Source: Acetohalobium arabaticum DSM 5501 (lineage in GTDB: Bacteria > Bacillota > Halanaerobiia > Halobacteroidales > Acetohalobiaceae). From it: a stretch of DNA of 64,000 nt. Below are positions 43,683 to 60,744 of this stretch, piece after piece. The translations under genes and the position numbers were made by a program. Position 1 is the stretch's first letter. The number at the start of each line of letters is the position of its first letter. The notes under the pieces were generated by a model. The model had not been told where the DNA came from, made no database searches, and worked only from the letters and a program-made list of their open reading frames with translations. Location: contig NC_014378.1 in NCBI RefSeq assembly GCF_000144695.1, positions 470,781 through 534,780 of the forward strand, read 5' to 3'.

Positions 43683-44444
43683 GTGTTAGCTGAAGTTTTA
43701 GGCATAAGGTTTGGTGCAGCAATTTCTCTAATAGGTGGTGGGGGAAAGACTACTACCATGTTTAGATTGGCTGAGGAATTGAGTCTAGAGAATAGAGTAA
43801 TTACTACTACGACTACAAAGATTTTTAAGCCACCAACTAATAAGATAGATGATCTAATTATTTGTAAAGATTTTGATCTATTATTAGAACGATTGGAGTT
43901 GAGTCAAGCTCAGTTATTAACAGTAGCAAAAAAAATTACAGTCAAAGATAAGTTAATTGGTATTGATTCTTGTTGGGTTGATAAATTGAAGGGGGCCGGA
44001 TTAAGTTATGCCCCTATTATTATAGTAGAAGCTGATGGAGCAGCCTGCAAGGATTTTAAAATTCCTAATCAAACTGAACCTGTTGTGCCAGTAAGCACTA
44101 ATTTATTACTACCGGTGGTAGGTAGTAGATTAGTTGGACAACAATTAAACTCTCATAATTTACATCGTGCTTCCTTAATAAATACTATTAATTCTCAGTT
44201 TGATATTGGCCAATTAATTACTCCAGAGTTAGTAGTTGAAATTTTATTAGGTAAAGCCGGATATGATTTATTGACTAAACAACAAAATTATGAGGTGATT
44301 CCCTTGATTAATCAAGTGGATACTGATCCTAGATATAATTTTGCTTTAGAAATAGCACATAAATTAGTAGCAGCGGGGATAAAGAAAGTCTTATTAACAG
44401 CAGTTAAGCGAAAAGAACCTGTGGTAGGGGTTGTTAAAAGATGA
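43683..44444 (+). CDS. yqeC: Selenium cofactor biosynthesis protein YqeC
   Basis: A 253-residue P-loop protein. The nucleotide motif GGGGKTT (~21-27) is followed by ITTTTTKIFKP and IIVEADGAACKDFKIPNQTEPVVP, the typical YqeC block. It starts at GTG after AGGAG. It overlaps mocA by four bases, indicating translational coupling. The family's role in the labile selenium cofactor is known mainly by association. Confidence 0.85.
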   Translation: MLAEVLGIRFGAAISLIGGGGKTTTMFRLAEELSLENRVITTTTTKIFKPPTNKIDDLIICKDFDLLLERLELSQAQLLTVAKKITVKDKLIGIDSCWVDKLKGAGLSYAPIIIVEADGAACKDFKIPNQTEPVVPVSTNLLLPVVGSRLVGQQLNSHNLHRASLINTINSQFDIGQLITPELVVEILLGKAGYDLLTKQQNYEVIPLINQVDTDPRYNFALEIAHKLVAAGIKKVLLTAVKRKEPVVGVVKR

Positions 44445-45028
44445 TTTCAGCTATAGTGTTGGCAGCTGGGATGTCTACTAGATTAGGCAAGACAAAGCAG
44501 TTGCTTTCAATTGGGGAACAGACGATAATAGAAAGAGTAATAGATAATTTATTAGCAGTTGATTTAGATGAAGTTGTAGTTGTAGTAGGACATGAGGCTC
44601 CTAAAGTAAAAAAAGTATTAAATAATAGAGACATTAAGATTAGCTATAATCCTGATTATAGATCAGGGCAGAGTACTTCTTTAATTAGAGGATTACAGTC
44701 AATTAATAATAAGTGTAGTGGTATTCTCTGTGCTTTAGGAGATCAGCCGTTAGTGAAAGCAAAGACTTTGAATCGATTAATTGTTGAATTTAAAAGGGGA
44801 CAAGATTTAATAGTAGTTCCTGAATATAAAGAACAGAGAGGAAATCCGGTTATTTTTGATTCTCAATTGAAGCCAGAGATGTTAAAGCTTGAAGGAGATC
44901 AAGGTGCAAGGACTTTAATCAAGAAATATCATGTTCAAAGTAAGAGAGTGCGAGTTTCTGACCGGGGAGTTGTTTTTGATATTGATACTAAAGTAGATTA
45001 TCATCAATTATTGAAACAATTAGACTAA
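44441..45028 (+). CDS. mocA: Molybdenum cofactor cytidylyltransferase-like protein
   Basis: A 195-residue nucleotidyltransferase: LAAGMSTRLGKTKQLL (~6-21) with the NTP-binding LAAGxSxRxGxxK pattern, CALGDQPLVKAKTL (~92-105) and GNPVIFD. MocA makes molybdopterin cytosine dinucleotide, the cofactor form used by many bacterial xanthine dehydrogenase-family enzymes, consistent with the Mo hydroxylase at 28144-31847. Confidence 0.87.
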   Translation: MISAIVLAAGMSTRLGKTKQLLSIGEQTIIERVIDNLLAVDLDEVVVVVGHEAPKVKKVLNNRDIKISYNPDYRSGQSTSLIRGLQSINNKCSGILCALGDQPLVKAKTLNRLIVEFKRGQDLIVVPEYKEQRGNPVIFDSQLKPEMLKLEGDQGARTLIKKYHVQSKRVRVSDRGVVFDIDTKVDYHQLLKQLD

Positions 45029-45102
45029 GTATAAAATCTATGCTTCCAGTGATGTCATTTTAATAGTAATTTTTTCCTGGTATAAAGGAAGGGGAAGTTG
45101 AA

Positions 45103-45438
45103 ATGGAAATAAAGTGGAAAATTTGGTTAGAAGAAGATGACGGCAAAGTATTTGGGGATGGTCCCAGAGAATTACTAAGTAAAGTTAAGGAGTTAGGTTC
45201 TTTACGACAGGCTGCTAAAGCTATGGATATGTCCTATAGTAAGGCCTGGAGCATAATTTCTATGATAGAAAAAAATTTAGATGTTGAGTTATTACAAAGA
45301 CAGATTGGAGGTAGCAATGGTGGTGGATCAGAGTTAACTGAGGAAGGTAAGGAAATTTTAATTAAGTATCATAAGATGGAACAGGAAGTTGATCATACAT
45401 TGCAGAAAATATTTCAAAATTTTTTTAACTGCTGTTAA
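45103..45438 (+). CDS. ModE-type winged-helix DNA-binding protein without molybdate domain
   Basis: A 111-residue protein equal to the N-terminal domain of ModE: IKWKIWLEEDDGKVFGDGPRELL, then the helix-turn-helix SLRQAAKAMDMSYSKAWSIISMIEKNL and GSNGGGSELTEEGKEIL wing. The molybdate-binding domains of full ModE are absent, as in many clostridial short forms; ligand sensing would need another protein or metal-free regulation. It closes the Mo gene run, whose first gene has a ModE-type operator (36863). Confidence 0.85.
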   Translation: MEIKWKIWLEEDDGKVFGDGPRELLSKVKELGSLRQAAKAMDMSYSKAWSIISMIEKNLDVELLQRQIGGSNGGGSELTEEGKEILIKYHKMEQEVDHTLQKIFQNFFNCC

Positions 45439-45556
45439 ACTTCATTAAATTAGTTAATTGGCACCAATTTTATCTACCACTTTATCCAACAAAGTTTATA
45501 TCAATTACTTCTAGTAACTTGTTCAAAAGTATGGTACAATTATTTATAAATTTTAG

Positions 45557-45622
45557 CTCCTTTGATTTGTGGATTTTGTGCTTGTGGGGTACTCTTCCAT
45601 TTATCAAAGGAGTTTTCTTTTT
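45557..45622 (+). terminator. Terminator-like hairpin with a large loop after the modE-like gene
   Basis: CTCCTTTGAT / ATCAAAGGAG, a 10-bp perfect stem closing a 36-base loop, then TTTTCTTTTT. A small RNA ending here is possible. The 590-base gap to 46032 also holds tandem repeats, a palindrome and a sigma54 promoter, listed separately. Confidence 0.75.
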
Positions 45623-45680
45623 GTAAGGGTAGTTTTAGCTAAAATTTCGATGCAACGCTAGTGACCAAAAAATGATTAAT

Positions 45681-45704
45681 GGGATATCGGGTTATCGGGG
45701 TATA
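45681..45704 (+). promoter_or_regulatory. Tandem 8-bp activator repeats before the glutamate mutase operon
   Basis: GGGATATC, GGGTTATC, GGGGTATA in direct succession with 8-base spacing. A similar pair occurs at 54617. They stand about 250 bases before the sigma54 promoter. Confidence 0.55.
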
Positions 45705-45728
45705 AAAATAAAAGAATTCTTTTATTTT
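45705..45728. repeat. 24-bp perfect AT-rich palindrome
   Basis: AAAATAAAAGAATTCTTTTATTTT is its own reverse complement. It directly abuts the tandem activator repeats and may be part of the same control region. Confidence 0.7.
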
Positions 45729-45953
45729 AACCCAATCATTAATTATTAATGGGAAGAAGTTAAATTAAATGATGATGAAATAGGAGAAATTAGATAAAGT
45801 TGTCGATAAGGTGATCCTTTAAGTTACATTTAATTAAAATTAATGGTAAAGAACGTTTGTTATAGCGGTATAAATTGTTAAAGAAGGATTACTCCCCCTT
45901 TTTGTTAGTTGATGAATAAATAATAATGATTTTTTGTTGATTTATTGAGCTTT

Positions 45954-45970
45954 TTGGAATAGAATTTGCA
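45954..45970 (+). promoter_or_regulatory. Sigma54 promoter of the glutamate mutase operon
   Basis: TTGGAATAGAATTTGCA with GG at 45956-45957 and GC at 45968-45969, 10 bases apart. The start codon of glmS is about 60 bases downstream. Confidence 0.82.
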
Positions 45971-46031
45971 GTATAAAGTAAGTGAAATCTAATAAGCCAA
46001 TTTTAAATTTTAAGTAAAGGTGGGATATATA

Positions 46032-46448
46032 ATGGAAGATAAGACAATAGTAATGGGAGTTATAGGTTCGGATGTACATGCAGTAGGCAATAGAATCTTA
46101 CAGGAAGCATTTGAGAAAGCGGGATTTGAAGTGATTAATATCGGGGTGTTAGCACCTCAGGAAGATTTCATTAATGCTGCAGTGGAGACAGATGCTGATG
46201 CTATTTTGGTTTCTTCACTCTACGGCCATGGAGAGATGGACTGTAAAGGCTTTAAAGAGAAGTGTGTAGAGGCAGGATTAGAGGATATTGTTCTTTATGT
46301 TGGCGGTAACTTAGTTGTTGGAAAACAGGACTGGGAACCGGTAAAAGAGAAATTCTTGGATATGGGCTTTGACCGTGTCTACCCACCAGGAACATTACCA
46401 GAAGAACCGATTGCTGATTTAAAAGAAGATTTAGGTATTGAAGAGTAG
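46032..46448 (+). CDS. glmS: Glutamate mutase (methylaspartate mutase) small subunit
   Basis: A 138-residue B12-binding subunit, the usual size. The cobalamin motif DVHAVG (~15-20), where His replaces the lower cobalt ligand, is followed by [19 protein letters not shown] and [13 protein letters not shown], all GlmS/MutS hallmarks. It binds adenosylcobalamin with GlmE and rearranges L-glutamate to 3-methylaspartate. The ATG at 46032 follows AAGGTGGG; an in-frame GTG at 46020 overlaps it. Confidence 0.95.
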
Positions 46449-46475
46449 TAAATCTGAAATTAGTGGGGTGAGGTT

Positions 46476-47894
46476 ATGGAATTAGCCTTATTATTGGATA
46501 TTGGCAGTACTTATACTAAAGCTACTGTAGTCGATGTAGAGAATATAGAGCTTAAAGCAAAGGCTAAAGCTTCAACTACTGTCTGGAATGATGTGAATGT
46601 AGGAATTGAAAATGCCCTAAATAAGATAGAAGAACAGGGAATTGATTTGGATAAGATCGAACATCGTTTGGCCTGCAGTAGTGCTGCTGGTGGCTTGAAG
46701 CTAGTAGCCATCGGTTTAGTTCCGGATTTGACTGCTGAAGCAGCTAAGAGAGCAGCATTAGGAGCTGGAGCCAAGGTTGCTAATGTCTATTCCTATGAGA
46801 TAACTGATACTGAATTAGAAGAGATTATTGACCAAGAGTCAGATGTAATTTTATTAGCTGGCGGAACAGACGGCGGTAATCAAGAGATAATATTGAAGAA
46901 TGCCAGAACATTAGCTGATTCTAAGCTTGCTGCACCAGTTATAGTAGCAGGTAATAAAGTAGCAACTAATGAAGTAACAGAAGTTTTAGAAGAAGGCGGT
47001 AAAGAAGTCTATGTAACTGAAAATGTAATGCCTAAACTGGAAGAGTTAAATATAGAACCGGCTCGTAAGACTATAAGACAGGTTTTTCTGGATAAGATTA
47101 TTTATGCTAAAGGTTTATCCCAAGCAAAAGAGCATATTGATCGCTTAATTATGCCGACGCCTTCGGCAGTAATGACAGCAGCAGAATTGATTGCAGAAGG
47201 AACACATGATGAAGGTGGATTAGGTGAATTGATTATTGTCGATATCGGCGGTGCTACTACTGATATTCATTCAGTAGCTGCTGGTAATCCGACAAAAGGC
47301 GGAGTAAATGTTAAAGGACTAGAAGAACCTTATGTTAAACGGACAGTTGAGGGTGATCTGGGAATGCGCTACAGCGCTCCCTCGCTATTAAAAGCTGTTG
47401 GAGAAAGAGAGCTATTAACTTATCTTTCAGATGACATAGATAAAGAACAGGTTATAGATTATGTTAGCAAAGTAAGAGAAGATGTAGAGTATGTTCCTTC
47501 TAATAAGGAAGAAAAGGATTTAGATTCTGGTTTAGCCAAAGTAGCTACTAAGCTAGCAATTCAAAGACATGTGGGGCGGATTGAAACAGTCTACAGTCCC
47601 TTTGGAGAGACTCAGGTTCAGTATGGAAAGGATTTGACTGATCTGGATTTGATTATAGGTACCGGCGGAGTCTTGGTTCATAATGATAAGCCTGCTAAAG
47701 TACTACAGGCAGGTTTATTTGATGAAGCAGAACCTACAATTTTAGCTCCAATGGAGCCTGGTTTCTTGTTAGATCAGGATTATCTATTAGCATCGATCGG
47801 ATTATTATCTGAAATCTCTGCTACTAAAGCTTTAAAGTTAGCTAAAAAACATTTTAAACAAATAGGAGGCGAAATAAATGGAATTAAAGAATGA
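46476..47894 (+). CDS. glmL: Glutamate mutase reactivation protein MutL/GlmL
   Basis: A 472-residue actin-like ATPase: phosphate motif [17 protein letters not shown] (~6-22), [15 protein letters not shown] (~124-138), [16 protein letters not shown] (~252-267) and GTGGVLVHN. The family is thought to reactivate the cobalamin mutase by ATP-driven exchange of damaged cofactor. The glmS-glmL-glmE order is standard. Its end overlaps glmE by 17 bases. Confidence 0.94.
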
Positions 47895-49326
47895 AAAGTG
47901 GAGCCTAGATAAATTTAAAGAAATTCGGGAAGAAGTACTACAGCAGTGGCCGACAGGTAAGGATGTGGACTTTGAAGAAGCGATAGAGTATCATAATAAT
48001 CTACCGGAAGAACAGATTATGGCTGAAAAATTAGCAGAAGCAAAAGAAGAAGATGTAACTTTAATTCAGCCTAGAGCTGGTGTAGCATTGATTGATGAGC
48101 ATATTGAACTATTGAAGTTCTTAAGAGAAGAAGGCCAAGCAGATTTACTGCCTAGCACAATAGACAGCTATACTCGTCAGAATAATTATGAAGAAGCAGA
48201 AGCCGGAATTGAAGAAAGTAGAGAAGAAGGAAGATCAATGTTAAATGGTTTTCCAGCCGTTAATCACGGAGTTAAAGCCTGTAGAGAAGTAGTGGAAGCT
48301 CTGGATGCACCGTTGCAGGTTCGCCACGGGACACCTGATGCTAGACTACTGGCTGAAATTACTTTAGCCGGTGGATTTACTGATTATGAGGGCGGCGGAC
48401 TATCCTATAATATTCCGTATGCTAAAAATGTATCCATCGAACAGACACTACTTGACTGGCAGTATGTTGATAGATTAATAGGTTATTATGAAGAGAATGG
48501 GATTAAGATCAATCGTGAGCCTTTTGGTCCATTAACTGGAACTTTAGTTCCTCCATCCGTATCACACAGTGTAGCAATTATTGAGGGGCTTCTAGCAGCA
48601 GAACAGGGTGTTAAGAATATTACTTTAGGCTATGGACAATGCGGTAACTTAGTCCAGGATGTAGCTGCATTACAGTCGTTAGAAGAGTTAGCCGAAGAGT
48701 ATTTAGCAGATTATGAAGATGTAATGTTAACTACTGTATTCCACCAGTGGATGGGCGGCTTCCCCCAGGATGAAGCACAGGCTTTTGGTGTTATTTCTTG
48801 GGGAGCAGCAACAGCTGCATTAGGTAAAGCAACTAAAGTAATTACCAAAACGCCTCATGAAGCTATGGGAGTGCCGACTAAAGAAGCAAATGCGGAAGGC
48901 TTAAGATCTACTAAGCAGGTTATTAATATGCTGCGGGACCAGAGCCTTCTTTCTAATGATAAGTTAGAAGAGGAAAAAGAAATGATCAAACAGGAAACTA
49001 AACAGATTCTTGACCGCGTATTTGAATTAGGAAATGGAGATGTGGCTCAGGGAACAGTTAGAGCCTTTGAAGCAGGAGTATTGGATGTACCGTTTGCTCC
49101 AAGTAAGTATAATGCTGGAAATCTATTACCGGCTCGTGATGATGATGGAGCAGTGAGATTCTTAAACCACGGTAATCTACCATTCTCCGATGAAGTAGTT
49201 GAGTTTCACCAAGAGAAATTAGAAGCCCGCGGTAAATCTGAGGGAAGAGAGCCTAACTTCCAGATGGTAATTGATGATATCTATGCTATCGGTAAAGGAA
49301 GATTAGTAGGCAGACCTCGTTCTTAA
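47878..49326 (+). CDS. glmE: Glutamate mutase (methylaspartate mutase) epsilon subunit
   Basis: A 482-residue TIM-barrel subunit, the normal length. Typical segments are [37 protein letters not shown] (divided, ~146-183), [18 protein letters not shown] (~220-237), [25 protein letters not shown]. Arg in VRHGTPD binds the glutamate carboxylate in known structures. AGGAGG lies in the end of glmL. Confidence 0.95.
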
Positions 49327-49373
49327 TTGATCAGATAATGATAATATAAAATTCTTTGGGGAGGAAATCCGTA

Positions 49374-50615
49374 ATGAAGATAGAAAAGATAGTAACTTCA
49401 CCAGGACTGACAGGTTTTTATTTTGATGATCAGCGAGCAATCAAAGAAGATGCTGAACATGATGGACTAGCTTATCTTGGAGATCCTGTAACTGAGGGCT
49501 TTAGCAGTATTCGACAAGCAGGCGAATCAATTTCCGTGATGATTATCTTAGAAGATGGTCAGGTAGCTTATGGTGACTGTGCTGCTGTGCAGTATTCTGG
49601 AGCAGGAGGACGGGATCCACTATTTTTAGCCGAAGAATTTATTCCCATTATCGAAGAAGATATTGCCCCTAAGTTAGTAGGGAGAGAGATGGATAGCTTC
49701 AAGGAATTAGCTGAAGAATTTGATAACTTAAAGGTAGACGGTGAGCGGCTCCATACAGCAATTAGATATGGAATTACTCAGGCATTATTGGATGCTGTAG
49801 CAAAATCTAAGAATAAAACAATGACAGAGGTAGTAGCAGAAGAATACGGTCTAGACCTAGTTTCTAAGCCGGTACCTATCTTTGCTCAAACAGGTGATGA
49901 TAGATACCTAAATGCTGATAAAATGATTATCAAGCATGCTGACGTAATTCCTCATGCTTTAATCAATAATGTTAAAGATAAATTGGGTGAAGATGGAGAT
50001 AAATTATTGGATTATGTTGAATGGTTGAAGAATAGAGTAAGCCAGCTAAGAACAGAAGAGGATTATGAGCCTATCTTCCATATTGATGTCTATGGAACTA
50101 TCGGACTGGCTTTTGATAATGATCCTGAAGCAATGGCTGATTACTTAGAAAAGTTAGCTGCAATGGCAAAGCCGCATACATTAAGAATTGAAGGACCAAT
50201 GGATTCTGGTAGTCGTGCTGATCAGGTTGCAGATATGAAGGCTTTAAGAGACGAAGTAAAAGAGCGCGGCATTGATGTAGAGTTAGTAGCAGATGAATGG
50301 TGTAATACCTTTGCAGATATTAAGAAATTTGTAGATGAAGAAGCAGCCGATGTAGTTCAGATTAAGACACCTGACCTAGGCGGTATCAATAATACAATCG
50401 AAGCTGTATTATACTGCAAAGAGAACGGTGTTGGTGCTTATCAAGGCGGAACCTGTAATGAAACAGATCGTTCAGCCCAGGTATGTGTGAATCTAGCCTT
50501 AGCTACAAGACCGGATCAGATGCTGGCTAAGCCGGGCATGGGTGTTGATGAAGGATTAATGATTGTCAATAATGAAATGAATAGAGTATTAAGTCTAATT
50601 GAGGCATGTAACTAA
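49374..50615 (+). CDS. mal: Methylaspartate ammonia-lyase
   Basis: A 413-residue enolase-superfamily enzyme, the same length as the Clostridium tetanomorphum enzyme. Seen: GDCAAVQYSGAGGRDP (~67-82), FAQTGDDRYLNADKMI (~172-187), HIDVYG, VADEWCNTFADI with metal ligands, and VVQIKTPDLGG (~327-337) with the catalytic Lys, then YQGGTCNETDRSA. It removes ammonia from 3-methylaspartate to give mesaconate. The ATG at 49374 follows GGGGAGG. Confidence 0.95.
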   Translation: MKIEKIVTSPGLTGFYFDDQRAIKEDAEHDGLAYLGDPVTEGFSSIRQAGESISVMIILEDGQVAYGDCAAVQYSGAGGRDPLFLAEEFIPIIEEDIAPKLVGREMDSFKELAEEFDNLKVDGERLHTAIRYGITQALLDAVAKSKNKTMTEVVAEEYGLDLVSKPVPIFAQTGDDRYLNADKMIIKHADVIPHALINNVKDKLGEDGDKLLDYVEWLKNRVSQLRTEEDYEPIFHIDVYGTIGLAFDNDPEAMADYLEKLAAMAKPHTLRIEGPMDSGSRADQVADMKALRDEVKERGIDVELVADEWCNTFADIKKFVDEEAADVVQIKTPDLGGINNTIEAVLYCKENGVGAYQGGTCNETDRSAQVCVNLALATRPDQMLAKPGMGVDEGLMIVNNEMNRVLSLIEACN

Positions 50616-50632
50616 ATATTGGAGGGATAGAA

Positions 50633-51991
50633 ATGGAAGAATTAAGAATATTATCTCCGACAGCGATTCTGGGTTATGGTTTTCCTAGAGAATCGTTCGA
50701 AAGAGGTTTAGAAAAAGAACCTGATTTGATTGCAGTAGATGCTGGTTCTACTGACCCAGGGCCTTATTATTTAGGAGCAGGTATTTCCTTTACTGATAAA
50801 ACAGCAGTTAAGAGAGATCTTAAATTAATGATTAAAGCAGGTCAAGAAAGGGATATTCCGGTCATTTTAGGAAGTGCCGGTGGTGCTGGTGGAGCACCAC
50901 ATCTAGAATGGTGTACAGAAATAGTAAAAGAGATTGCTGAGGAAGAAGACTTAAACTTTAAGTTAGCAACAATTCAGTCTGAACAGGATCCAGATTATAT
51001 TTTGGATAAATTTGAAGCCGGAGGAGTTTCAGCTTTACCTCCTGCCGAAGAAACAACAAGAGCAGAACTGGAAGCCAGTACAAGAATTGTAGGTCAGATG
51101 GGTGTAGAGCCTATTATTAAGGCTTTAGAAAAGGATGCTGAAGTAATTGTAGCCGGTCGCGCCTATGATCCAACAGTTTTTGCTGGTTACTGTATTAAGG
51201 AAGGATTTCCAGCTGGTTTAGCACTTCATATGGGTAAGATTATGGAATGTGCATCTATTGCTGCTAATCCTGGTAGCGGTAGTGACAGTATGTTTGGAAT
51301 TCTGAGAGATGATCACTTTGTTCTGGAACCGCTAAATAAAGATCGAAGATGTACTACAACTTCAGTAGCGGCCCACACGCTTTATGAAAAAGCAAATCCG
51401 CTGGAATTACATGGGCCGGGTGGAGTTATTGATCTATCAGAAGCCGATTTTGAACAGTTAGATGATAGAAGAGTTAAAGTTACTGGTAGTAAATTCATTG
51501 AAGATGAAGAATATACAGTTAAATTAGAAGGAGCCAAAAAAGTAGGATATAGAACGTTATCTATTGCTGGAACTAGAGATCCAATTATGATTAATGAATT
51601 AGATCATATAAAAGAGGTAGTTAGAGAGACAGTAAGGGATAACTTTGATGATCTATCCGAAGATGATTATCAATTACTCTTTAGAATCTATGGTGAAGAT
51701 GCAGTTATGGGCGATCTAGAGCCTAACGAAGAAATTACATCCCATGAGGTAGGGATTGTTATTGAAGTAGTAGCCAAGACTCAGGAATTGGCCAATACTA
51801 TCTGCAGCTTTGCTCGATCTACAATGCTGCATTACGGCTATCCAGGCCGGGTAGCAACAGCAGGGAACTTAGCTTTTCCTTATTCACCGTCTGATCTGAA
51901 AGCAGGCGAGGTTTATGAATTTAATCTACATCATCTGATTACAGTTGATGATCCGTGTGAGCCATTTCCAATGGAGATAGAAGAGTTATAA
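50633..51991 (+). CDS. DUF1446/AtuA-like protein in the glutamate fermentation operon
   Basis: A 452-residue protein with the N-terminal half of the AtuA (acyclic terpene utilisation) family: LSPTAILGYGFPRESFERGL, DLIAVDAGSTDPGPYYLG (~33-50), ILGSAGGAGGAPHLEW, VIVAGRAYDPTVFAG. The family has no agreed reaction. A DUF4387 gene follows by 13 bases; this pair recurs beside methylaspartate ammonia-lyase genes. The pair may act in the mesaconate/citramalate part of the pathway or in a shunt; this is inference from context. Confidence 0.82.
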   Translation: MEELRILSPTAILGYGFPRESFERGLEKEPDLIAVDAGSTDPGPYYLGAGISFTDKTAVKRDLKLMIKAGQERDIPVILGSAGGAGGAPHLEWCTEIVKEIAEEEDLNFKLATIQSEQDPDYILDKFEAGGVSALPPAEETTRAELEASTRIVGQMGVEPIIKALEKDAEVIVAGRAYDPTVFAGYCIKEGFPAGLALHMGKIMECASIAANPGSGSDSMFGILRDDHFVLEPLNKDRRCTTTSVAAHTLYEKANPLELHGPGGVIDLSEADFEQLDDRRVKVTGSKFIEDEEYTVKLEGAKKVGYRTLSIAGTRDPIMINELDHIKEVVRETVRDNFDDLSEDDYQLLFRIYGEDAVMGDLEPNEEITSHEVGIVIEVVAKTQELANTICSFARSTMLHYGYPGRVATAGNLAFPYSPSDLKAGEVYEFNLHHLITVDDPCEPFPMEIEEL

Positions 51992-52013
51992 AACGGGAAA
52001 GAAGGTGATTTTA

Positions 52014-52337
52014 ATGTCAGAAACTAAAAATATTAGAGAATTGATAGATGTAATTAGAAGTAAGAATGCAGGTCCTTACGAATTAACATTTGACTTTATC
52101 TTTAAAAGCTTTGAAATCTATGATAAAGTCAAAGAATCCGGTGTAGTTAATAAAGAGTTAATTGCAGACTTGTATGATATACCAGTAGATGATGTAATTT
52201 CGGTTATTAATTATGACCCTGCAAAAGCAATTAAGGCAACGATTGTTCGTCCTTGTTCTTCAGGAGCAGTAGGAGAGACAGATGTCTATGGAGCTCAGCA
52301 GCATGCACCGCTATTAAGCATTGAAATTCCTATGTAA
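52014..52337 (+). CDS. DUF4387 family protein
   Basis: A 107-residue protein with the DUF4387 signature: IRELIDVIRSKNAGPYELTFDFIF (~9-32), FEIYDKVKESGV and the end VRPCSSGAVGETDVYGAQQHAPLL. It is the usual partner of AtuA/DUF1446 proteins and in some bacteria is fused to them, which points to a complex. The ATG at 52014 follows AAGGTGA. Last gene of the glm operon before a hairpin. Confidence 0.82.
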   Translation: MSETKNIRELIDVIRSKNAGPYELTFDFIFKSFEIYDKVKESGVVNKELIADLYDIPVDDVISVINYDPAKAIKATIVRPCSSGAVGETDVYGAQQHAPLLSIEIPM

Positions 52338-52421
52338 CTAGGAAAATTTAACTGAAATAGAAGTCATTATTATAGCTAAAAGGCTTGAATTATAAGCATA
52401 ACATAATTATTTATAGAAACT

Positions 52422-52460
52422 AATGGGTTATGAAGTGGGATTTTCACTTTATAACCCATT
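52422..52460 (+). terminator. Hairpin at the end of the glm operon
   Basis: AATGGGTTATGAAGTG / CACTTTATAACCCATT, a 16-bp stem with one G-U and a 7-base loop. Only a weak T-rich stretch follows. The arms contain GGGTTAT, the half-site seen in the activator repeats at 45689 and 54617, so it may also be an autoregulatory operator for the next gene. Confidence 0.65.
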
Positions 52461-52557
52461 TGGTTATTTATGGGAACTGTTTAGTTTAAAAGGAAAATTG
52501 GATTTTATGTCGAAAAATATAGTTGGAGATTATAATTTCTTATCAGGGGGGACTTTA

Positions 52558-54609
52558 GTGGGAATTACAAAAAAAGAACTGGTAATTATAACTATTAGTA
52601 AAGAAACTAATGAATTATTTAAACAGCAGTTGGAGAAAGTATTGAAAAATAAAGTAAATATAAAGAGTTATATAATAGAAGAGATTGATGATCAGTTTGT
52701 TGAAGCAGATCTAATTTTATCAACTAAGTCTTTGATGGGAGAGATAGATAATTATGTAGCTGATCCAAGTAAAATTATATTTGCCAGAAGATCACTAGAT
52801 ATTTCTTTCCTCGAGCAGTTAATCAAGCTTCCAGCTAATAAGAAGGCATTATTAATTAACAATACTCAATTGGCTGCTTTTGAAGCCAAGGATTTATTAA
52901 CAGAAGTAGGAATTGATCATATTGATTTGATCCCCTTTTATCCCGGCAAAGGAACAGTTGATAAGGTTGATTTAGCAATTAATCTAGGTGAAGATAAGTA
53001 TGTACCTGATAATATTGATCAGGTTATCAATATTGGAAGTAGAGTTCTTGATTTAACAACGATTATAGAGATTTTAATAGAGCTGAATCTACTAGATGAT
53101 AAGTCTAATCTTTTATCATCAAGATATATAAGAGAATTAGTAGAGTTAAGCCGTAGATTGGAAATTAATATGAAGAATAAAGCTAGAATCAATAAGAAGC
53201 TGGATGCTATAATTAATCATGTTCATGATGGAATAATTTATATTAATCAGCAAGAAGAGATTAAAGTATTTAACGAAATGGCAGAAGAAATCTTTGAAAT
53301 GGATGCTGAAGATGTCATTGGCAATAAAGTGAATGAAACTATTCCTAATACTAAATTGGATGAAGTCTTAAAAGAAGATATTAAACATATAAATGCTGTT
53401 CAGAATATAGGTAGTAAGAAGATAGTAAGTACCAGAGTTCCGGTTAAAGAAGAAGGAGAGACTGTTGGAGCTTTGGCTACTTTTAAGGATGTAACTGATG
53501 TAAAGGAATTAGAAGAGGATTTAAGAAGAAAATTAAAGAAAAAAGGTCATATAGCTAAGTATAATTTTTCTGATATAGTTGGAAAAAGCCAGGAATTAAA
53601 GAAGGGTATAAAGAAGGCCAAAAAATTATCTAAAAGTGAGTCTACTGTTCTAATCCAGGGAGAGAGCGGAACAGGAAAAGAGTTATTTGCTCATTCGATA
53701 CATAATTATTCTGAGCGAAATAAAGCACCGTTTGTAGTTATTAACTGTGCTGCTCTGCCGGATAATCTGTTGGAAAGCGAACTCTTTGGTTATGAAGAAG
53801 GAGCCTTTACTGGAGCTAAGAAGGGCGGTAAACCGGGAGTCTTTGAACAGGCCCATACAGGAACTATCTTTCTGGATGAGATAGGAGATATTTCTCCTAG
53901 TATTCAATCGCGGCTTTTGCGGGTGCTGCAGGAAAAGGAAGTAATGAGAGTCGGCGGTACTAAGGTGATTCCTATAGATATTAGGGTTATTACAGCTACT
54001 AATAAGAATATACAGCAGTTAGTCAGCGAAGGTAAATTCAGAGAAGATCTCTATTATAGATTGAATGTTTTATCACTACAGCTTCCTCCTCTCCGCCGCA
54101 GAAGAGAAGATATACCTCTGTTAATCGATTACTTTTTAGAAAAGTTTGATAGAGAAGATCTATCTCTATCAAAGGAGGTAATAAGTAGATTATATAATTA
54201 TAACTGGAAAGGTAATATTAGAGAGTTAGAAAACTGTATTGAATATATTGTTCAGATCTGTGAAGATGAGGTAGAGATTGATAATCTCCCCTCTCATTTT
54301 AATCCCAAACAGAATAATCAGAAACAGGAACAGGTGAATATGGATTTTGAATTGGATGAGCTAGGAGATATAGAGGAGTATATATTTATTCTGAATGAAC
54401 TTTATTTAGCCAAGCAGTTAGATGAGAATATAGGTAGAAGAGAGATAGCTAAAAATGCAGAGATTAATAATCTATATCTCTCTCCACAGATGGTAAGAAG
54501 TAGATTGAATAAATTAGAAGAACATGGTTTAGTAGATATAGGCAAAGGTAGACAGGGGACAACGATTACTAATAAAGGAATTAAAGTATTAAAAGAATTA
54601 GGCAATTGA
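52558..54609 (+). CDS. Sigma54-dependent activator with PAS, AAA+ and C-terminal winged helix
   Basis: A 683-residue enhancer-binding protein. The first ~180 residues are a two-lobed sensory region I cannot name; a PAS domain spans ~220-320; the AAA+ domain (~340-570) has Walker [22 protein letters not shown] (GAFTGA 415-420) and [19 protein letters not shown]. Instead of the usual Fis helix-turn-helix the C-terminus looks like a winged helix ([38 protein letters not shown], ~620-660). The GTG at 52558 follows AGGGGGG; longer in-frame starts run through the upstream hairpin and lack a ribosome site. It lies between the two operons it probably controls. Confidence 0.88.
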
Positions 54610-54616
54610 TATTATT

Positions 54617-54632
54617 GGGTTATTGGGTTGTT
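54617..54632 (+). promoter_or_regulatory. Tandem activator repeats before the mesaconase operon
   Basis: GGGTTATT GGGTTGTT in direct tandem, like the repeats at 45681. They start seven bases after the activator gene and about 210 bases before the sigma54 promoter. The rest of the 327-base gap shows only the promoter. Confidence 0.5.
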
Positions 54633-54841
54633 TTAGGTAGGTGGTTTCTGATTAATATCGCCCATTCAATGTCGATAATACAATTAATTCCTCGAAAAAT
54701 AATTATAGAAGTATAAGCTTAATTAAAATATTGATCCGAAAATTATATTTTTAGTTAATTAATTCCAGATTAATACAGCAGAATTAAAGTTGAAAAGTTA
54801 TATATTGAGAAAATAAATATTTTTTAGGTTTGCTGCTAAGT

Positions 54842-54858
54842 TTGGTATAGAAATTGCA
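54842..54858 (+). promoter_or_regulatory. Sigma54 promoter of the fumarase-type (mesaconase) operon
   Basis: TTGGTATAGAAATTGCA with GG at 54844-54845 and GC at 54856-54857, 10 bases apart, 79 bases before the start codon. Confidence 0.82.
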
Positions 54859-54936
54859 TTTAAAATAATAGTGAGAAATGAATGAAAATTAAAGTATAAA
54901 TAAGAGTCCGGTTTCGAAAAAGGAGGCAGGATAGTA

Positions 54937-55779
54937 GTGTCAATTAATGTGAATGAGATTACAGATGCAGTAGCAGAAATGTGTATGGAAGCAAATTTTA
55001 TTCTCGGTGATGATATAATTGAAAGTTATCATCAGGCACTTGAGAGAGAAGATTCTCCAGTGGCCCAGGAAATATTAGAAAGATTAATTGAAAATGCTGA
55101 AATTGCTAAAGAAGAGAAGATGCCTATCTGTCAAGATACAGGCATGACTGTTGTATTTGCTGAGTTGGGTCAGGATGCTGAGATAGAAGGTGGAGATCTA
55201 ACAGAAGCTATCAATAAAGGTGTAAGCAAAGGATATAAAGAAGGCTATTTGCGCAAATCTGTAGTAGATGGCCCGCTAGAGCGGGAGAATACTGGTGATA
55301 ATACTCCGGCAGTAATCCATACGGAGATAGTACCTGGCGATAAATTGAAGCTGACAGTAGCCCCTAAAGGCTTTGGCAGTGAGAATATGAGCCAGATTAA
55401 GATGTTAAAGCCTGCCGATGGAGTTGAGGGAGTTAAAGACTTTGTAGTTCAGGCAGTTAAAGAAGCCGGGCCTAATCCTTGTCCGCCGGTAGTAGTAGGC
55501 GTAGGAATCGGCGGTACCTTCGAAAAAGCGGCATTCCTAGCCAAGAAGTCGCTATTGAGACCGGTTGGAGAAGCCAGTCAAGAAGAAAATATATCAGAAT
55601 TAGAAGAAGAGCTGTTGGAGAAAGTAAATGAATTGAATATCGGCCCGCAGGGCTTTGGCGGTAAGACGACGGCCTTAGCAGTTAATGTTGAGACCTATCC
55701 GACGCATATTGCTGGCTTGCCGGTAGCAGTTAATATAAACTGTCATGTAACTAGACATAAAGAACGGACCTTGGGTTAA
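54937..55779 (+). CDS. Class I fumarase-type hydratase alpha subunit, probably mesaconate hydratase
   Basis: A 280-residue subunit of the two-subunit fumarase/tartrate dehydratase family. The 4Fe-4S ligands are in MPICQDTGMTVVFAELGQ (~63-80), PNPCPPVVVGVGIGGTFEKAAFLAKK (divided, ~178-203) and INCHVTRHKER near the end. In glutamate fermenters a class I fumarase-like enzyme hydrates mesaconate to citramalate; sigma54 control shared with the glm operon favours this over fumarase or tartrate dehydratase. It starts at GTG after AGGAGG with rather long spacing. Confidence 0.85.
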   Translation: MSINVNEITDAVAEMCMEANFILGDDIIESYHQALEREDSPVAQEILERLIENAEIAKEEKMPICQDTGMTVVFAELGQDAEIEGGDLTEAINKGVSKGYKEGYLRKSVVDGPLERENTGDNTPAVIHTEIVPGDKLKLTVAPKGFGSENMSQIKMLKPADGVEGVKDFVVQAVKEAGPNPCPPVVVGVGIGGTFEKAAFLAKKSLLRPVGEASQEENISELEEELLEKVNELNIGPQGFGGKTTALAVNVETYPTHIAGLPVAVNINCHVTRHKERTLG

Positions 55780-55794
55780 AAGGAGGCTAAAAAG

Positions 55795-56328
55795 ATGAGC
55801 GAGATTCGATTAGAAACTCCATTGACAGAAGAGAAAGTAAGAGAGTTAGAAGCAGGAGATACAGTGCTTATTTCAGGAACAGTCTATACAGCCCGCGATG
55901 CAGCCCATGCTCGTTTAATAGATGCTCTAGACTCAGAGAAGGATATGCCTTTTGAAATAGACGGTCAGGTTATCTATTATGTAGGTCCTGCACCGGCTAA
56001 GCCGGGTAAGCCTATCGGTTCTGCTGGACCGACGACAAGTTATCGCATGGATCCCTTTGCTCCAAGATTAATCAAAGAGGGACTGCGGGGAATGATCGGT
56101 AAAGGATACCGCAATAACGAGGTAGTAGAAGCTATGAAAGAAGAAGGAGCAGTCTATTTTGGGGCAATTGGCGGAGCAGCAGCTTTGATAGCCCAGAGGA
56201 TTAAAGAAGCAGAAGTAATAGCCTATGATGACTTGGGAACAGAGGCGGTAAGAAGGCTAGAAGTAGAAGACCTACCAGTCTTAGTGGTAATAGATGCCGA
56301 AGGCAATAGCCTTTATGAGACTGAATAA
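55795..56328 (+). CDS. Class I fumarase-type hydratase beta subunit
   Basis: A 177-residue partner subunit: GDTVLISGTVYTARDAAHARL (divided, ~22-42), YYVGPAPAKPGKPIGSAGPTTS (~61-82), GMIGKGYRN and GAVYFGAIGGAAAL, with the catalytic region of the family. It follows the alpha gene by 15 bases with AAAGGAGG. No citramalate lyase gene is present in the window, so the route to pyruvate and acetate must finish elsewhere. Confidence 0.87.
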   Translation: MSEIRLETPLTEEKVRELEAGDTVLISGTVYTARDAAHARLIDALDSEKDMPFEIDGQVIYYVGPAPAKPGKPIGSAGPTTSYRMDPFAPRLIKEGLRGMIGKGYRNNEVVEAMKEEGAVYFGAIGGAAALIAQRIKEAEVIAYDDLGTEAVRRLEVEDLPVLVVIDAEGNSLYETE

Positions 56329-56357
56329 CTGAAGGTTTAATTAGAAGATATATATAT

Positions 56358-56387
56358 ATAGGAATAGATTTCAAAATCTATTCCTAT
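56358..56387 (+). terminator. Terminator of the mesaconase operon
   Basis: ATAGGAATAGATTT / AAATCTATTCCTAT, a 14-bp perfect stem with a two-base spacer. The following 420 bases to the nhaC gene are AT-rich and hold no recognisable gene; a weak -12/-24-like sequence (CTGAATAGAACTTGCA, 56683-56698) lacks the GG. Confidence 0.7.
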
Positions 56388-56809
56388 TTAGCACTCCAAA
56401 TTTTATAATTATATTCTGAATATTATAAAATTTAATAAAATGATTGATATTATAATGACAAACATATGTAATAATTTAAAGATATCAATTATGAAAATAT
56501 AAAGAACTTAAATTATAGACAAATTAGATAAATATAAACTACATTTTAAATTTATTTAAGGAGGTGATGTGACAAAAGGAAGGTACTAAAACCTACAATT
56601 TAGGGGATGAAAATTAATTCAACTAGTCAGATTACGTTATTAAATTCTAAATTTGCTACACTATAATGATGAACTGGTGTAACTGAATAGAACTTGCAGA
56701 AATATCCGTTTATTAACATTTATTTAGATTATTCTTTGTACTTAATATTGAACAAAATTTCAAATCTGTATTAATAAATTATTATAAATAGGAGGAGGAA
56801 ATATTAATA

Positions 56810-58318
56810 ATGAATAAAAATATGAAGAAACAGATGAAGAAGTGGTTATTGCTTACTGTAGGAGTAGTGGCATTTACTTTTATGCTTAGTAGTGTCGGCT
56901 TTGCTGGCGGCGAAAGTGCAGAGAATTATGGAATTCTTTCAATTGTACCTCCCATTTTGGCTTTAACATTAGCTTTTGTTACACGCCAGGTAGTACCTGC
57001 CTTGTTTTTAGGTGTTGTTGCTGGTGGAATTATTACCGGTAACTTTGATATTGTAGGAGAGTACTTGATACCTTCTTTAGGTTCTGAGGGTTATGCCCAA
57101 ATATTATTGGTATATCTCTGGTGTCTTGGCGGCTTAATCGGTATCTGGACTAAAACAGGTGGAGCCCAGAAATTTGCTAAATGGGCTGGAAAGAAGATGG
57201 TTCGTGGTAGAAGATCAGCTAAGTTCTTTGCCTGGATTATGGGGGTTGTCTTCCATCAGGGAGGAACTATCAGTACAATCCTGGCTGGTTCTACTGTTCG
57301 TCCTATCTGTGATGAAGCTGGAGTATCCCACGAAGAGTTATCTTATATCGTAGACTCTACAGCATCACCGATTGCTACTTTAATTCCATTTAATGCTTGG
57401 CCGCTATATATTGCAGGTCTAGTAGCAGGAACAATTCCATTGATTCCTGATGAAAGTGCAGGACTTGATTTATTCTTTAGTGCTATTCCATATAACTTTT
57501 ATGCCTGGATAGCTATCCTCTTTACTTTCCTATTAGCTATGGAGAAATTACCTTTTATTGGTAGTAAAATGAAGAAGGCAATTAAGAGAGTTAAGGAGAC
57601 AGGCAAATTAAATAGAGATGGTGCTGATCCGCTCGCTTCTGAAGAACTTACTGACCTGGATGTTCCAGAAGACTATAACACTACTTTAATAGACTTTATT
57701 GTTCCGATTGGAACCTTATTAGGAGTAGGTGTTATTCCCAAGTTTATAGTAGGTGATATGTATATTCCACAGGCTTTTATGTTGAGTGTACTGTCAGCTA
57801 TGGTGTTAGCATTATTTAAAGGAATGGAGTTAGACAATGTAATAGATGGATTTGTTGATGGTGCTAAAGGTGTAACAATCGGTGCTATTATTCTGGGATT
57901 AGCTGTTACTTTAGGAAATGTATCTGACAGTTTAGGAACTGCCTCTTATATAGTAGGAGCCACAGAATCAATTATTATTCCTGTGCTTTTACCAGCCATC
58001 TACATGGTATTATGTATGTTCATTGCTTTCTCTGTAGGAAGTTCCTGGGGTACTTATGCAGTAATGTTCCCGATTGCTATGCCGCTGGCTTATGCAGTCA
58101 ATCCTGATCCAACCTTTATTACTCTCTGTTTTGCTGCTGTAACTGGAGGTTCAATCTACGGTGATCAGGTTTCTCCGATCTCCGATACAACGATTATGTC
58201 TTCACTTGCTTGTGGTGCTGACTTGATGGATCATGTTTATTCTCAGATTCCGCAGGCCAGTGTGGCAGCCGGTATTTCAATGGTTCTATATACTATTCTG
58301 ACTGCTATCTTATGCTAG
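56810..58318 (+). CDS. nhaC: NhaC-family Na+/H+ antiporter
   Basis: A 502-residue membrane protein with about 11-12 helices. It starts with a basic signal-like segment (MNKNMKKQMKKWLLLTVGVV) and has the NhaC/NhaD-like blocks VFHQGGTISTILAGSTVRPICD (~147-168), DSTASPIATLIPFNAWP (~182-198), GSSWGTYAVMFPIAMPLAY (~406-424) and GDQVSPISDTTIMSSLACGADL. The family also includes malate/lactate antiporters (MleN), so exchange of a fermentation product is possible. AGGAGGAGG precedes the ATG. Confidence 0.88.
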   Translation: MNKNMKKQMKKWLLLTVGVVAFTFMLSSVGFAGGESAENYGILSIVPPILALTLAFVTRQVVPALFLGVVAGGIITGNFDIVGEYLIPSLGSEGYAQILLVYLWCLGGLIGIWTKTGGAQKFAKWAGKKMVRGRRSAKFFAWIMGVVFHQGGTISTILAGSTVRPICDEAGVSHEELSYIVDSTASPIATLIPFNAWPLYIAGLVAGTIPLIPDESAGLDLFFSAIPYNFYAWIAILFTFLLAMEKLPFIGSKMKKAIKRVKETGKLNRDGADPLASEELTDLDVPEDYNTTLIDFIVPIGTLLGVGVIPKFIVGDMYIPQAFMLSVLSAMVLALFKGMELDNVIDGFVDGAKGVTIGAIILGLAVTLGNVSDSLGTASYIVGATESIIIPVLLPAIYMVLCMFIAFSVGSSWGTYAVMFPIAMPLAYAVNPDPTFITLCFAAVTGGSIYGDQVSPISDTTIMSSLACGADLMDHVYSQIPQASVAAGISMVLYTILTAILC

Positions 58319-58340
58319 TAATTTAAATAAGTAAGAAAGA

Positions 58341-58381
58341 GAGGCGCTAGAGCTTTCTAGTGCCTCTTCTTTTTTTTTTTT
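58341..58381 (+). terminator. Strong terminator after nhaC
   Basis: GAGGCGCTAGA / TCTAGTGCCTC, an 11-bp stem with one G-U and a four-base loop, followed closely by a run of 13 Ts. Confidence 0.92.
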
Positions 58382-58515
58382 AAAAAAAAAGAGTATAAAT
58401 ATGTAAATGAATTTGATTATTAGTTTGACAAAATCATAAAATTCATTAATAATATAACATATAAGTGACACTTGACTAACATTTTATAAAATAATTAATT
58501 TAAGGAGTGATTATA

Positions 58516-59286
58516 ATGTATAAAGTTGATTTAAATAGTGATATTGGGGAAAGTTTTGGGAATTATAAATTAGGTTTTGATGAAGAAATTGTTCCGCATA
58601 TTACTTCTGCTAATATTGCTTGTGGCTGGCATGCTGGAGATCCAACTGTAATGGCCCATACAGTAGATATTGCAATTCAAAATAATACTGCTATTGGTGC
58701 TCATCCTGGTCTCCCAGATCTAATGGGGTTTGGAAGAAGGAGAATGGAGGTATCACCACAAGAAGTAAAATCATATGTCAAATACCAATTAGGTGCTTTG
58801 ACAGCTTTTGCAGAAGCAAAGGGAAATAAAATACAGCATGTAAAACCTCATGGGGGATTATATAATATGGCAGCTGAGGACAGAGATTTAGCTAGAGCAA
58901 TTGCTAAGGGAATTTATGAGGTAGATAAAGATATTATTTTGGTTGGTTTAGCTAATAGCGAACTGATTCACATGGGTAAAGAAGTAGGGGTGAGAGTTGC
59001 AAATGAAGTCTTTGCAGATAGAGCATATAATCCTGATGGAACTTTAGTTTCTAGAAAAAGAGAAGGAGCGGTGATTCATGATCCAGATCTTGCTTTTTCC
59101 AGAATAGCAAAAATGGTTTTAGACGGGAAAGTAGAGGCTATAAATGGAGAAGAAATAGAAATTACTGCGGATACTATTTGCGTACATGGTGATAATCCAG
59201 AAGCAGTAGAATTTGTAAGTAAAATAAATACTAAATTAAAAGCAGAAGGTATTGAGGTCGCTCCGATTAGCCAAATAGTAGCATAA
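58516..59286 (+). CDS. pxpA: 5-Oxoprolinase subunit A (LamB/YcsF family)
   Basis: A 256-residue protein beginning [12 protein letters not shown], followed by [15 protein letters not shown] (~36-50), [15 protein letters not shown] (~65-79), [11 protein letters not shown] (~118) and [11 protein letters not shown]. PxpA with PxpB and PxpC hydrolyses 5-oxoproline (pyroglutamate) to glutamate using ATP. The ATG at 58516 follows AAGGAGTG. It is the first gene of a ycsF-ycsG-ycsI-kipI-kipA-type operon, and its product, glutamate, would feed the mutase pathway upstream. Confidence 0.93.
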
Positions 59287-59383
59287 TAGACTAACATAAA
59301 TAAGAATAATATGAAATTTGTGTTAAATTTATATTTTTATCATAATAGTTGAGTTTAGTGTTGACAAAACTGACATAGTATAT

Positions 59384-59414
59384 TAACATATATCTAACAT
59401 ATAGTTTACATATA
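59384..59414. repeat. TAACATATA direct repeats at 11-base spacing before the NRAMP-like gene
   Basis: TAACATATA (59384), TAACATATA (59395) and TTACATATA (59406) repeat every 11 bases just after a TTGACA at 59361. Two TAACAT copies 22 bases apart (58455, 58477) occur before pxpA after another TTGACA (58425). They may be operators shared by the two transcription units. Confidence 0.5.
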
Positions 59415-59478
59415 CTGATTTAAAGTATATATAACTTTCTAATGCAATTTAAAATTAAAAGGAGGTAGAAGTGAGAAA

Positions 59479-60744
59479 ATGAAAGAGAAGATTAAAGAAG
59501 AAACGCAGCATTGTCAAGGGAAAAAGGGCTTTTTAGCAAAATTAAAGCAAATTGGTCCTGGAGCTTTAGTAGCTGCTGCTTTTATAGGACCTGGAACTGT
59601 AACTACAGCTACAATTTGTGGAGCTAGTTTTGGTTATACTTTATTATGGGCTATGTTATTTTCTATAATTGCTACTATGGTACTACAAGAGATGTCATCT
59701 CGATTAGGAGTTGTAACTAGAAAAGGAATAGGAGAAGCTTTAAGAAATCAATTTGATAGTCCTACTTTAAAATGGATGAGTATAATATTAGTTATCTCTG
59801 CTATTGGAATTGGATGTGCTGCTTATGAAACTGGAAATATATTAGGAGGAGCTTTAGGCTTAGAGACTATTACAGGAATTAGTGGTAATATTTGGGGACC
59901 GGTTATGGGGATAATAGCTTTTCTCTTTTTGTGGACAGGAAGTTATAACATTATAGAAAAAATATTAGTTGGATTAGTTGGGGTAATGAGTGTTACCTTT
60001 ATATTGACAGCCATTATTATTAGACCTGATATAGGAGCAATTTTAAAAGGCTTTTTTGCCCCTACTATTCCTAAAGGTGGTTTAATGTTAGCTGTTTCTT
60101 TAATTGGTACCACAGTAGTACCTTATAATTTATTCCTTCATGCTTCTGCTGTTCAAGAGCGTTGGAATAGTGCAGAAGAGTTATCTAAAAGTCGATTAGA
60201 TACACTCTTATCAATAGGTTTAGGGGGGGCTATTTCTTCTGCAATTATAATAACTGCTGCAGCAACTTTTAAAGATACAGGAATTGTTCCTAACAATGCT
60301 GGTGAAATGGCTATCCAGTTAGAACCGTTATTAGGGACTTGGGCTAAGTGGTTTTTTGGAATTGGACTTTTTGCTGCTGGTTTTTCATCTTCAGTTACTT
60401 CGCCTTTAGCAGCTGCCTATGCTACTGTTGAAGCACTTGGCTGGAAGAATGACTTTAAATCAACTAAGTTTAAGTTAATCTGGGGAATAGTATTAATAGT
60501 TGGAATAATTGGTTCAGGACTAGGGAAGAGTCCGGTAACAATTATATTATTTGCTCAGGCAGCTAATGGAATTTTACTTCCTATAATAGCTTTATTCTTA
60601 ATGATTTTAATGAATAACGAAGACCGATTAGGAGAATATGCCAATAGTAAATTTCAAAATTTATTAGGCTGGATAGTAACAGCAGTAGCTTTTGGCTTGG
60701 GAATAAAATCATTATATTCAGTTTTACAAAAGTTAATTGGTTAA
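59479..60744 (+). CDS. NRAMP-like transporter (YcsG type) lacking metal-ligand motifs
   Basis: A 421-residue, 11-helix protein of the NRAMP fold. In metal transporters TM1 carries DPGN; here the aligned segment is GPGT (37-40), so both metal ligands are replaced. TM6 has VPYN where MPHN is expected. This is the pattern of divergent relatives found in 5-oxoprolinase operons (Bacillus ycsG). It is therefore more likely to import an organic substrate such as pyroglutamate than Mn2+ or Fe2+, but that is inference. AAGGAGG lies 12 bases before the ATG. Confidence 0.85.
   Translation: MKEKIKEETQHCQGKKGFLAKLKQIGPGALVAAAFIGPGTVTTATICGASFGYTLLWAMLFSIIATMVLQEMSSRLGVVTRKGIGEALRNQFDSPTLKWMSIILVISAIGIGCAAYETGNILGGALGLETITGISGNIWGPVMGIIAFLFLWTGSYNIIEKILVGLVGVMSVTFILTAIIIRPDIGAILKGFFAPTIPKGGLMLAVSLIGTTVVPYNLFLHASAVQERWNSAEELSKSRLDTLLSIGLGGAISSAIIITAAATFKDTGIVPNNAGEMAIQLEPLLGTWAKWFFGIGLFAAGFSSSVTSPLAAAYATVEALGWKNDFKSTKFKLIWGIVLIVGIIGSGLGKSPVTIILFAQAANGILLPIIALFLMILMNNEDRLGEYANSKFQNLLGWIVTAVAFGLGIKSLYSVLQKLIG

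Follow-up and report, generated by a model that had tools for sequence, protein, structure and literature searches.

A DUF1446/DUF4387 gene pair in the glutamate mutase operon of Acetohalobium arabaticum very probably encodes a two-subunit citramalate lyase

The glutamate mutase operon of Acetohalobium arabaticum DSM 5501 contains two adjacent genes for proteins of the PF07287 (formerly DUF1446) and DUF4387 families. We conclude that this pair, here called cmlA and cmlB, is very probably a two-subunit citramalate lyase of the CmlAB type. The activity of this copy is predicted from family membership, gene order, a near-complementary distribution of CitF in the sampled genomes, and homology to a deposited enzyme. 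The window, which is the whole 64,000-nucleotide stretch of DNA analyzed here, is part of a single-contig 2.47-Mb genome. On its forward strand, glmS, glmL, glmE, mal, the PF07287 gene, and the DUF4387 gene are followed by a hairpin, a gene for a sigma-54 regulator, and two fumarase genes (Table 1). Pfam and NCBIfam matches, with glmS, glmL, glmE, and mal each exceeding the NCBIfam cutoff, and the stem of the hairpin bear out a sequence-only reading that had placed both genes on the same strand in a glutamate mutase operon ahead of a hairpin. That reading also counted three mutase genes; glmS, glmL, and glmE are all present, but GlmL is the reactivation factor and not a mutase subunit.

Table 1. 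Features of the glm-cml region and the adjoining fumarase genes (window coordinates)
Feature	Position	Strand	Length	Match or description
Candidate sigma-54 -24/-12 promoter before glmS	45955..45970	+		1 mismatch
glmS, glutamate mutase B12-binding subunit	46032..46448	+		NF002612, 230 bits
glmL, glutamate mutase reactivation factor	46476..47894	+		NF040745, 649 bits
glmE, glutamate mutase subunit E	47878..49326	+		TIGR01503, 796 bits
mal, methylaspartate ammonia-lyase	49374..50615	+		TIGR01502, 630 bits
cmlA, proposed citramalate lyase large subunit	50633..51991	+	452 aa	PF07287 (formerly DUF1446), 83.6 bits
cmlB, proposed citramalate lyase small subunit	52014..52337	+	107 aa	PF14330 (DUF4387), 134.6 bits
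Hairpin after cmlB	52422..52460	+		18-pair stem, weak T-tract/terminator tail
Sigma-54 enhancer-binding regulator	52423..54609	+		PF00158, 240 bits
Candidate sigma-54 promoter before fumarase genes	54843..54858	+		1 mismatch
Class I fumarase alpha subunit, putative mesaconase	54937..55779	+		PF05681, 414 bits
Class I fumarase beta subunit, putative mesaconase	55795..56328	+		PF05683, 215 bits

The listed open reading frame of cmlB spans 52005 to 52337. As read from the sequence, the ATG at 52014 is the better start, and the GTG at 52005 falls inside the ribosome-binding stretch. The RNA fold of 52335 to 52480, around the hairpin, has a z score of -3.6, and the true start of the sigma-54 regulator gene is probably near 52509, beyond the hairpin. 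Rfam gave no matches in 44000 to 64000 of the window.

Sequence and structural identity of the pair

A sequence search of the PDB returned one strong match per protein; the two matches are partner chains in entries 9erq and 9evf. The cmlA product matched 9erq_A over residues 4 to 450 (E value, 1.3e-155; 54.3% identity), and the cmlB product matched 9erq_B over nearly its whole length (E value, 2.2e-28; 55.8% identity). Profile searches recovered 9erq and 9evf, with no other weighty match for either protein. The chains are named "Citramalate lyase, subunit A (cmlA)" and "subunit B (cmlB)" and also, neutrally, "AtuA family protein" and "DUF4387 domain-containing protein"; entry 9evf, released on 2025-10-08, is titled "Citramalate lyase - ADP - pyruvate complex." We assign citramalate lyase function to the pair since the depositors so name these entries.

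AlphaFold2 models of the separate single chains, CmlA and CmlB each alone, had mean pLDDT values of 94.1 and 92.7. The CmlA model superposed on 9evf_A with a Z score of 53.1 over 442 residues (rmsd, 2.2 Å), and the CmlB model superposed on 9evf_B with a Z score of 18.7 over 105 residues (rmsd, 1.1 Å). In Foldseek and VIA, the next-best fold matches were unconvincing for both CmlA (Z score, 9.7 over about 105 residues) and CmlB (Z score, 7.0), which does not make either protein a new fold. The sequence-only reading had stated that the window lacks a citramalate lyase; because both proteins match 9erq and 9evf in sequence and in AlphaFold superposition, the missing lyase is the pair itself. Its suggestion that the pair performs an alternative step on mesaconate or citramalate thereby gains a definite form, a CmlAB type citramalate lyase recognized by homology, fold, and clade. 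No paper on 9erq or 9evf was found in the literature searched. The function of CmlAB is already deposited in the PDB, and its recognition here is an ordinary but useful answer.

The source of 9erq and 9evf is likely an enterobacterium, because the PDB chains share 92.1% and 83.8% identity with ECs_0760 and ECs_0759 of E. coli O157:H7; the E. coli O157 pair lies directly after mal. Among named organisms, Natroniella, Frackibacter, and Fuchsiella have the CmlA proteins closest to that of the window (76 to 82% identity). In an alignment of 64 family members (A1; alignment A2 holds 63), 26 columns are invariant, and the PDB chain of CmlA keeps every one of them, as well as 18 of 20 marker residues of the methylaspartate clade. 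The family-invariant residues of CmlA include R176, D179, K202, E205, Y251, E252, K297, E299, R315, and D316. These are putative active-site residues; most of the active site probably lies in CmlA, and CmlB would complete it.

Phylogeny and distribution of the pair

An IQ-TREE phylogeny of 82 sequences, from which rows shorter than 430 aa, exact duplicates, and loci L132, L133, L165, and L174 had been excluded, contained a fork (support, 98/95) of 28 rows. Every sequence adjoining glmE or mal is in this fork (25 of 25, among them those of the window and of E. coli O157), as are the PDB chain and two sequences from genomes G203 and G151, whose glmE sits elsewhere in the genome. The 54 other tree rows, all unlinked, fall outside it. 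A second quick tree of 56 rows recovered the same fork (SH-aLRT, 98; 30 rows). Eight of the 16 sequences newly added to this tree lay inside the fork and eight outside; the eight inside come from genomes with a GlmE-like gene at a distance or on another contig, the GlmE matches of G267 and G091 being weak. Thus, the window pair belongs to the same clade as the PDB protein, with the small subunit adjoining and the large subunit homologous throughout.

We surveyed 398 genomes of the phylum for GlmE (PF06368), DUF4387 (PF14330), and CitF (PF04223). PF06368 matched 119 genomes, 86 of which were kept at a score of at least 190 bits, and stricter thresholds of 300 bits (80 genomes) and of 690 bits (69 genomes) were then compared. 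All 93 genomes matched by PF14330 were kept, fragments included, as were 30 of the 59 matched by PF04223 (at least 97 bits), the best matches of the others being partial and below 39 bits. Among the 69 genomes with full-length GlmE (at least 690 bits), DUF4387 was found in 60 (in 47 within 15 kb) and CitF in 13. Seven of the 69 had CitF alone, six had both, and two had neither, one of these two (G284) being 61% complete. With GlmE at 300 bits or more, DUF4387 was present in 64 of the 80 genomes and neither DUF4387 nor CitF in 9; DUF4387 lay within 15 kb of GlmE in 48, always on the same strand. The association gave Fisher P values of about 3e-37 (690 bits) to 3e-35 (190 bits), with kinship ignored. 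DUF4387 does not stand next to GlmE by chance.

CitF lay within 15 kb of GlmE in four genomes (G079, G133, G213, and G280), none of which had DUF4387 nearby. In three of these, CitF follows mal, 2.6 kb past GlmE, at about the usual distance of DUF4387. Of the six genomes with both DUF4387 and CitF, G275, G298, and G382 have a linked pair, the DUF4387 partner of G079 and that of G386 branch outside the citramalate lyase clade, and the sixth genome is G346. The citF gene is broken or in pieces in G079 and G171, and in G079 both citF and mal are split. At that locus (L093), mal is divided between two open frames that lie about 4.8 kb from each other, and citF is in two pieces, the picture of a broken glutamate fermentation locus. 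No match to CitF (PF04223) was found in the whole 2.47-Mb genome of A. arabaticum, and neither window protein matched citrate lyase families in the Pfam and NCBIfam scan. The distribution is as expected from nonhomologous replacement of the last enzyme, the cases with CitF being few. All 20 linked loci that were fetched have the order GlmE, Mal, CmlA, CmlB; in some of them other genes stand between Mal and CmlA, over as much as about 7 kb (L088).

Both families extend well beyond the methylaspartate pathway. In a genome-contig set of 45 loci found by CmlA alone, 44 had a CmlB match beside CmlA, and in 41 neither glm nor mal genes turned up within the flanks retrieved (at most 8 kb to either side); the patterns for this neighbor scan were derived from the window's protein, so the scan favors close relatives. 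DUF4387 was also found in 19 of 299 pseudomonadotal genomes, none of the 19 with GlmE, and in 27 of the 312 genomes of the phylum without GlmE (190 bits). The sequence-only reading had counted a pair mostly apart from methylaspartate genes as evidence against its idea. This is what we found for the wide families, but not for the clade of the window, where 25 of 28 rows are linked, one is the PDB chain, and two have GlmE elsewhere. Since both families outreach the pathway, their names alone do not give the reaction; the clade does.

Other roles for the pair were weighed against these data. Presence of the wide family in unrelated settings would suit a different role in the pathway, such as scavenging of a by-product, with another enzyme cleaving citramalate. 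We consider this very unlikely in view of the close homology to a deposited citramalate lyase, the similar place after mal of the pair and of CitF in different genomes, and a genome without CitF in which no citramalyl-CoA-lyase-like HpcH/HpaI enzyme was seen. The removal of a toxic by-product, which the sequence-only reading had offered as its other option, found no support; homology pointed to citramalate lyase instead. We also rejected a citramalyl-CoA lyase route, as the one clear HpcH/HpaI protein of the genome resembles a sugar-acid aldolase and not CitE. This protein scored best on the 2-dehydro-3-deoxyglucarate and 4-hydroxy-2-oxoheptanedioate aldolase models, all below cutoff, and a second HpcH/HpaI match in the genome was under the family cutoff.

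The remaining rival has citramalate converted to citramalyl-CoA, which CmlAB would cleave, the bound ADP mimicking the ADP part of CoA. The ADP in the title of 9evf can be read in this way, and AtuA, a distant relative, has been assigned a CoA-ester substrate (PMC4847356). Against it, there is no gene for a CoA-transferase or ligase from glmS to cmlB, nor in E. coli O157 from ECs_0756 to ECs_0762, save for cmlB, annotated "acyl-CoA synthetase," and the depositors named the enzyme citramalate lyase, not citramalyl-CoA lyase. We therefore regard cleavage of a CoA ester as improbable and retain direct action on citramalate by a CmlAB type lyase.

Proposed pathway, role of the nucleotide, and control

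In the proposed pathway, glutamate would be converted to 3-methylaspartate by GlmSE, kept active by GlmL, and Mal would release ammonia to give mesaconate. The class I fumarase encoded 2.6 kb downstream would act as a mesaconase and form (S)-citramalate, which CmlAB would split into pyruvate and acetate in place of CitDEF, the acyl-carrier-protein citramalate lyase of classical glutamate-fermenting clostridia. We infer the mesaconase role; class I fumarases of E. coli are described as hydrating mesaconate (PMC4682846). In the same source, Kronen and Berg pointed out that a DUF1446 gene lies downstream of mal in Enterobacteriaceae and has a homologue in Dictyoglomus, and they reported the fate of citramalate in E. 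coli O157 as unclear (PMC4682846). CmlAB is likely the answer there, because the O157 copy closely matches the solved enzyme.

The yield of the glutamate pathway is given as 4.75 ATP per 5 glutamate (Buckel review, PMC8473912). One ATP per citramalate, if not returned, would erase this yield; therefore, we think that ATP/ADP acts catalytically. Cleavage of citramalyl-phosphate would give pyruvate and acetyl-phosphate, whose phosphate would pass back to ADP, an acyl-phosphate thus replacing the acyl-carrier thioester of CitDEF. We advance this chemistry as a tentative best guess, more apt to be wrong than right; the bound nucleotide could instead be regulatory, or ADP could take the place of CoA.

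The genome holds a second copy of the fumarase genes: 54920 to 56318 and C1:570296-571694 (L228, 8297 to 9695) are 95% identical in DNA over 1,399 bp, and the alpha subunits share 260 of 267 residues. The second copy stands after a row of asparaginase, malic enzyme, aspartase, and racemase genes. Because it adjoins the asparaginase-aspartase row, we suggest that one promiscuous fumarase may serve both amino acid routes, through either a recent duplication or gene conversion.

Candidate sigma-54 sites flank the sigma-54 regulator gene on both sides, and their positions hint that the regulator may control both the glm-cml and the fumarase operons. The pattern occurs before glmS in 3 of 18 relatives (L070, L074, and L077) and before fumA in none of 8. 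Across the window there were 31 matches with up to two mismatches versus 24 expected, which is no clear enrichment. We did not take these sites as firm evidence, as they are suggestive only by position, occur near expectation, and recur in few relatives.

The end of the window (58507 to 64000) holds the 5-oxoprolinase genes pxpA and pxpB, a further gene that we take to be pxpC, and a gene for an Nramp-family transporter; the pxp genes may feed 5-oxoproline into the glutamate pathway. Within 60783 to 62912, a transposon gene, presumably tnpB-like, with a 90% identical copy in L228, is directly followed by the C-terminal half of a gene for D-glutamate cyclase, which covers positions 131 to 264 of 266 in NF003969. 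No N-terminal half was seen by eye in 60744 to 61060.

Wider families, significance, and comparison with known systems

A profile-profile comparison with nine AtuA-type sequences shows that CmlA is homologous to AtuA-type proteins (E value, 2.6e-20). A CmlA profile scored at most 49 bits on AtuA-type open reading frames and at least 400 bits on CmlA-like ones in the same genomes. In ten loci, a domain of about 110 residues, which Pfam names PF23544 in the four loci scanned, forms the C terminus of the AtuA-type protein or directly follows it; in G623, DUF4387 is fused to a CmlA-like protein (697 aa). PF23544 and DUF4387 align weakly from end to end (hhalign probability, 3 to 18%). Their global score of 22.3 exceeded those of all 200 column shuffles (maximum, 13.4), and their local score of 19.8 was reached by 3 of 200; these values lend weak support to a possible relatedness of DUF4387 to the AtuA C-terminal domain. 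One source places AtuA among "characterized or tentatively identified" enzymes, as the lyase that releases acetate in the acyclic terpene pathway (PMC4847356); another assigns this step to LiuE instead (PMC4097962). We rejected AtuA proper as the identity of the window protein, which scored 83.6 bits on PF07287 and carries no PF23544 (versus 501.5 bits and PF23544 for L175) and has no terpene-pathway neighbor in the ten genes scanned with Pfam between 46020 and 58318.

Some unlinked pairs have neighbors of a different kind. Those of L134, L116, and L138 adjoin aconitase-family genes; the pairs of L134, L116, L111, and L137 have TctC or TctA genes nearby, that of L134 also has an isocitrate/isopropylmalate dehydrogenase gene, and that of L138 has PrpF. 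The DUF1446/DUF4387 pair of L168 was placed in this group by gene layout only. In L116 (G381), a citE-like HpcH/HpaI gene and citF follow the pair at a distance of about 3.5 kb. The neighbors of these six pairs hint at a citrate-like substrate, and loss of free acetate from a tertiary alcohol would fit the aconitase/Tct-neighbored group. A citrate-like substrate is not general, since other unlinked neighborhoods hold different gene types (amidohydrolase, MFS, luciferase-like, DctM, sodium symporter, asparagine synthase, ABC transporter, and Met_gamma_lyase).

We raise, as a speculation that we rate unlikely on balance, that PF07287 proteins and their small partner (DUF4387 or PF23544, separate or fused) form a single acetate-splitting lyase family, with CmlAB working via catalytic ATP/ADP. 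Such enzymes would split acetate off tertiary beta-hydroxy acids with no acyl-carrier protein and no CoA-activated acetyl group. Members would be CmlAB (citramalate), AtuA (3-hydroxy-3-isohexenylglutaryl-CoA), and the pairs near Tct-type transporter, aconitase, PrpF, and isocitrate/isopropylmalate dehydrogenase genes, which, if the idea is true, are a new kind of citrate-type lyase. From this family-wide view, substrates can be proposed and tested for DUF1446/DUF4387 pairs that do not belong to the methylaspartate pathway.

The assignment names a probable lyase for the operon in most of the full-GlmE genomes sampled (60 of 69 with DUF4387) and may also explain what becomes of citramalate in E. 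coli O157, where its fate had been reported as unclear. It also reveals an annotation lag, with a structure in the PDB and family databases without function. NCBIfam has no model matching either gene of the pair, and Pfam names AtuA and DUF4387. The RefSeq names in E. coli O157 (L205, 36934 to 38618; ECs_0759 and ECs_0760) are misleading, with cmlB called acyl-CoA synthetase and cmlA called 3-methylaspartate ammonia-lyase.

CitDEF of Clostridium tetanomorphum is an acyl-carrier-protein type citramalate lyase made up of the subunits CitD, CitE, and CitF. It catalyzes the same overall reaction (PMC8473912) from a similar place in the operon, but the A. arabaticum genome has no CitF and the pair matches no citrate lyase family. 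AtuA is homologous to CmlA, has a small C-terminal or following domain where CmlB stands, and is assigned a chemistry that also frees acetate from a tertiary alcohol; unlike CmlAB, it has a CoA-ester substrate and a partner domain, PF23544, that is weakly like DUF4387. The closest counterpart is CmlAB of 9erq and 9evf, to which both chains match over nearly their full length, with the same fold and all family-invariant residues, and the place after mal is that of the E. coli O157 copy, 92% identical to the PDB chain. The window pair differs in being 54 to 56% identical to CmlAB, in its anaerobic Bacillota host (the PDB source probably being enterobacterial), and in having a two-subunit fumarase and a sigma-54 regulator encoded nearby.
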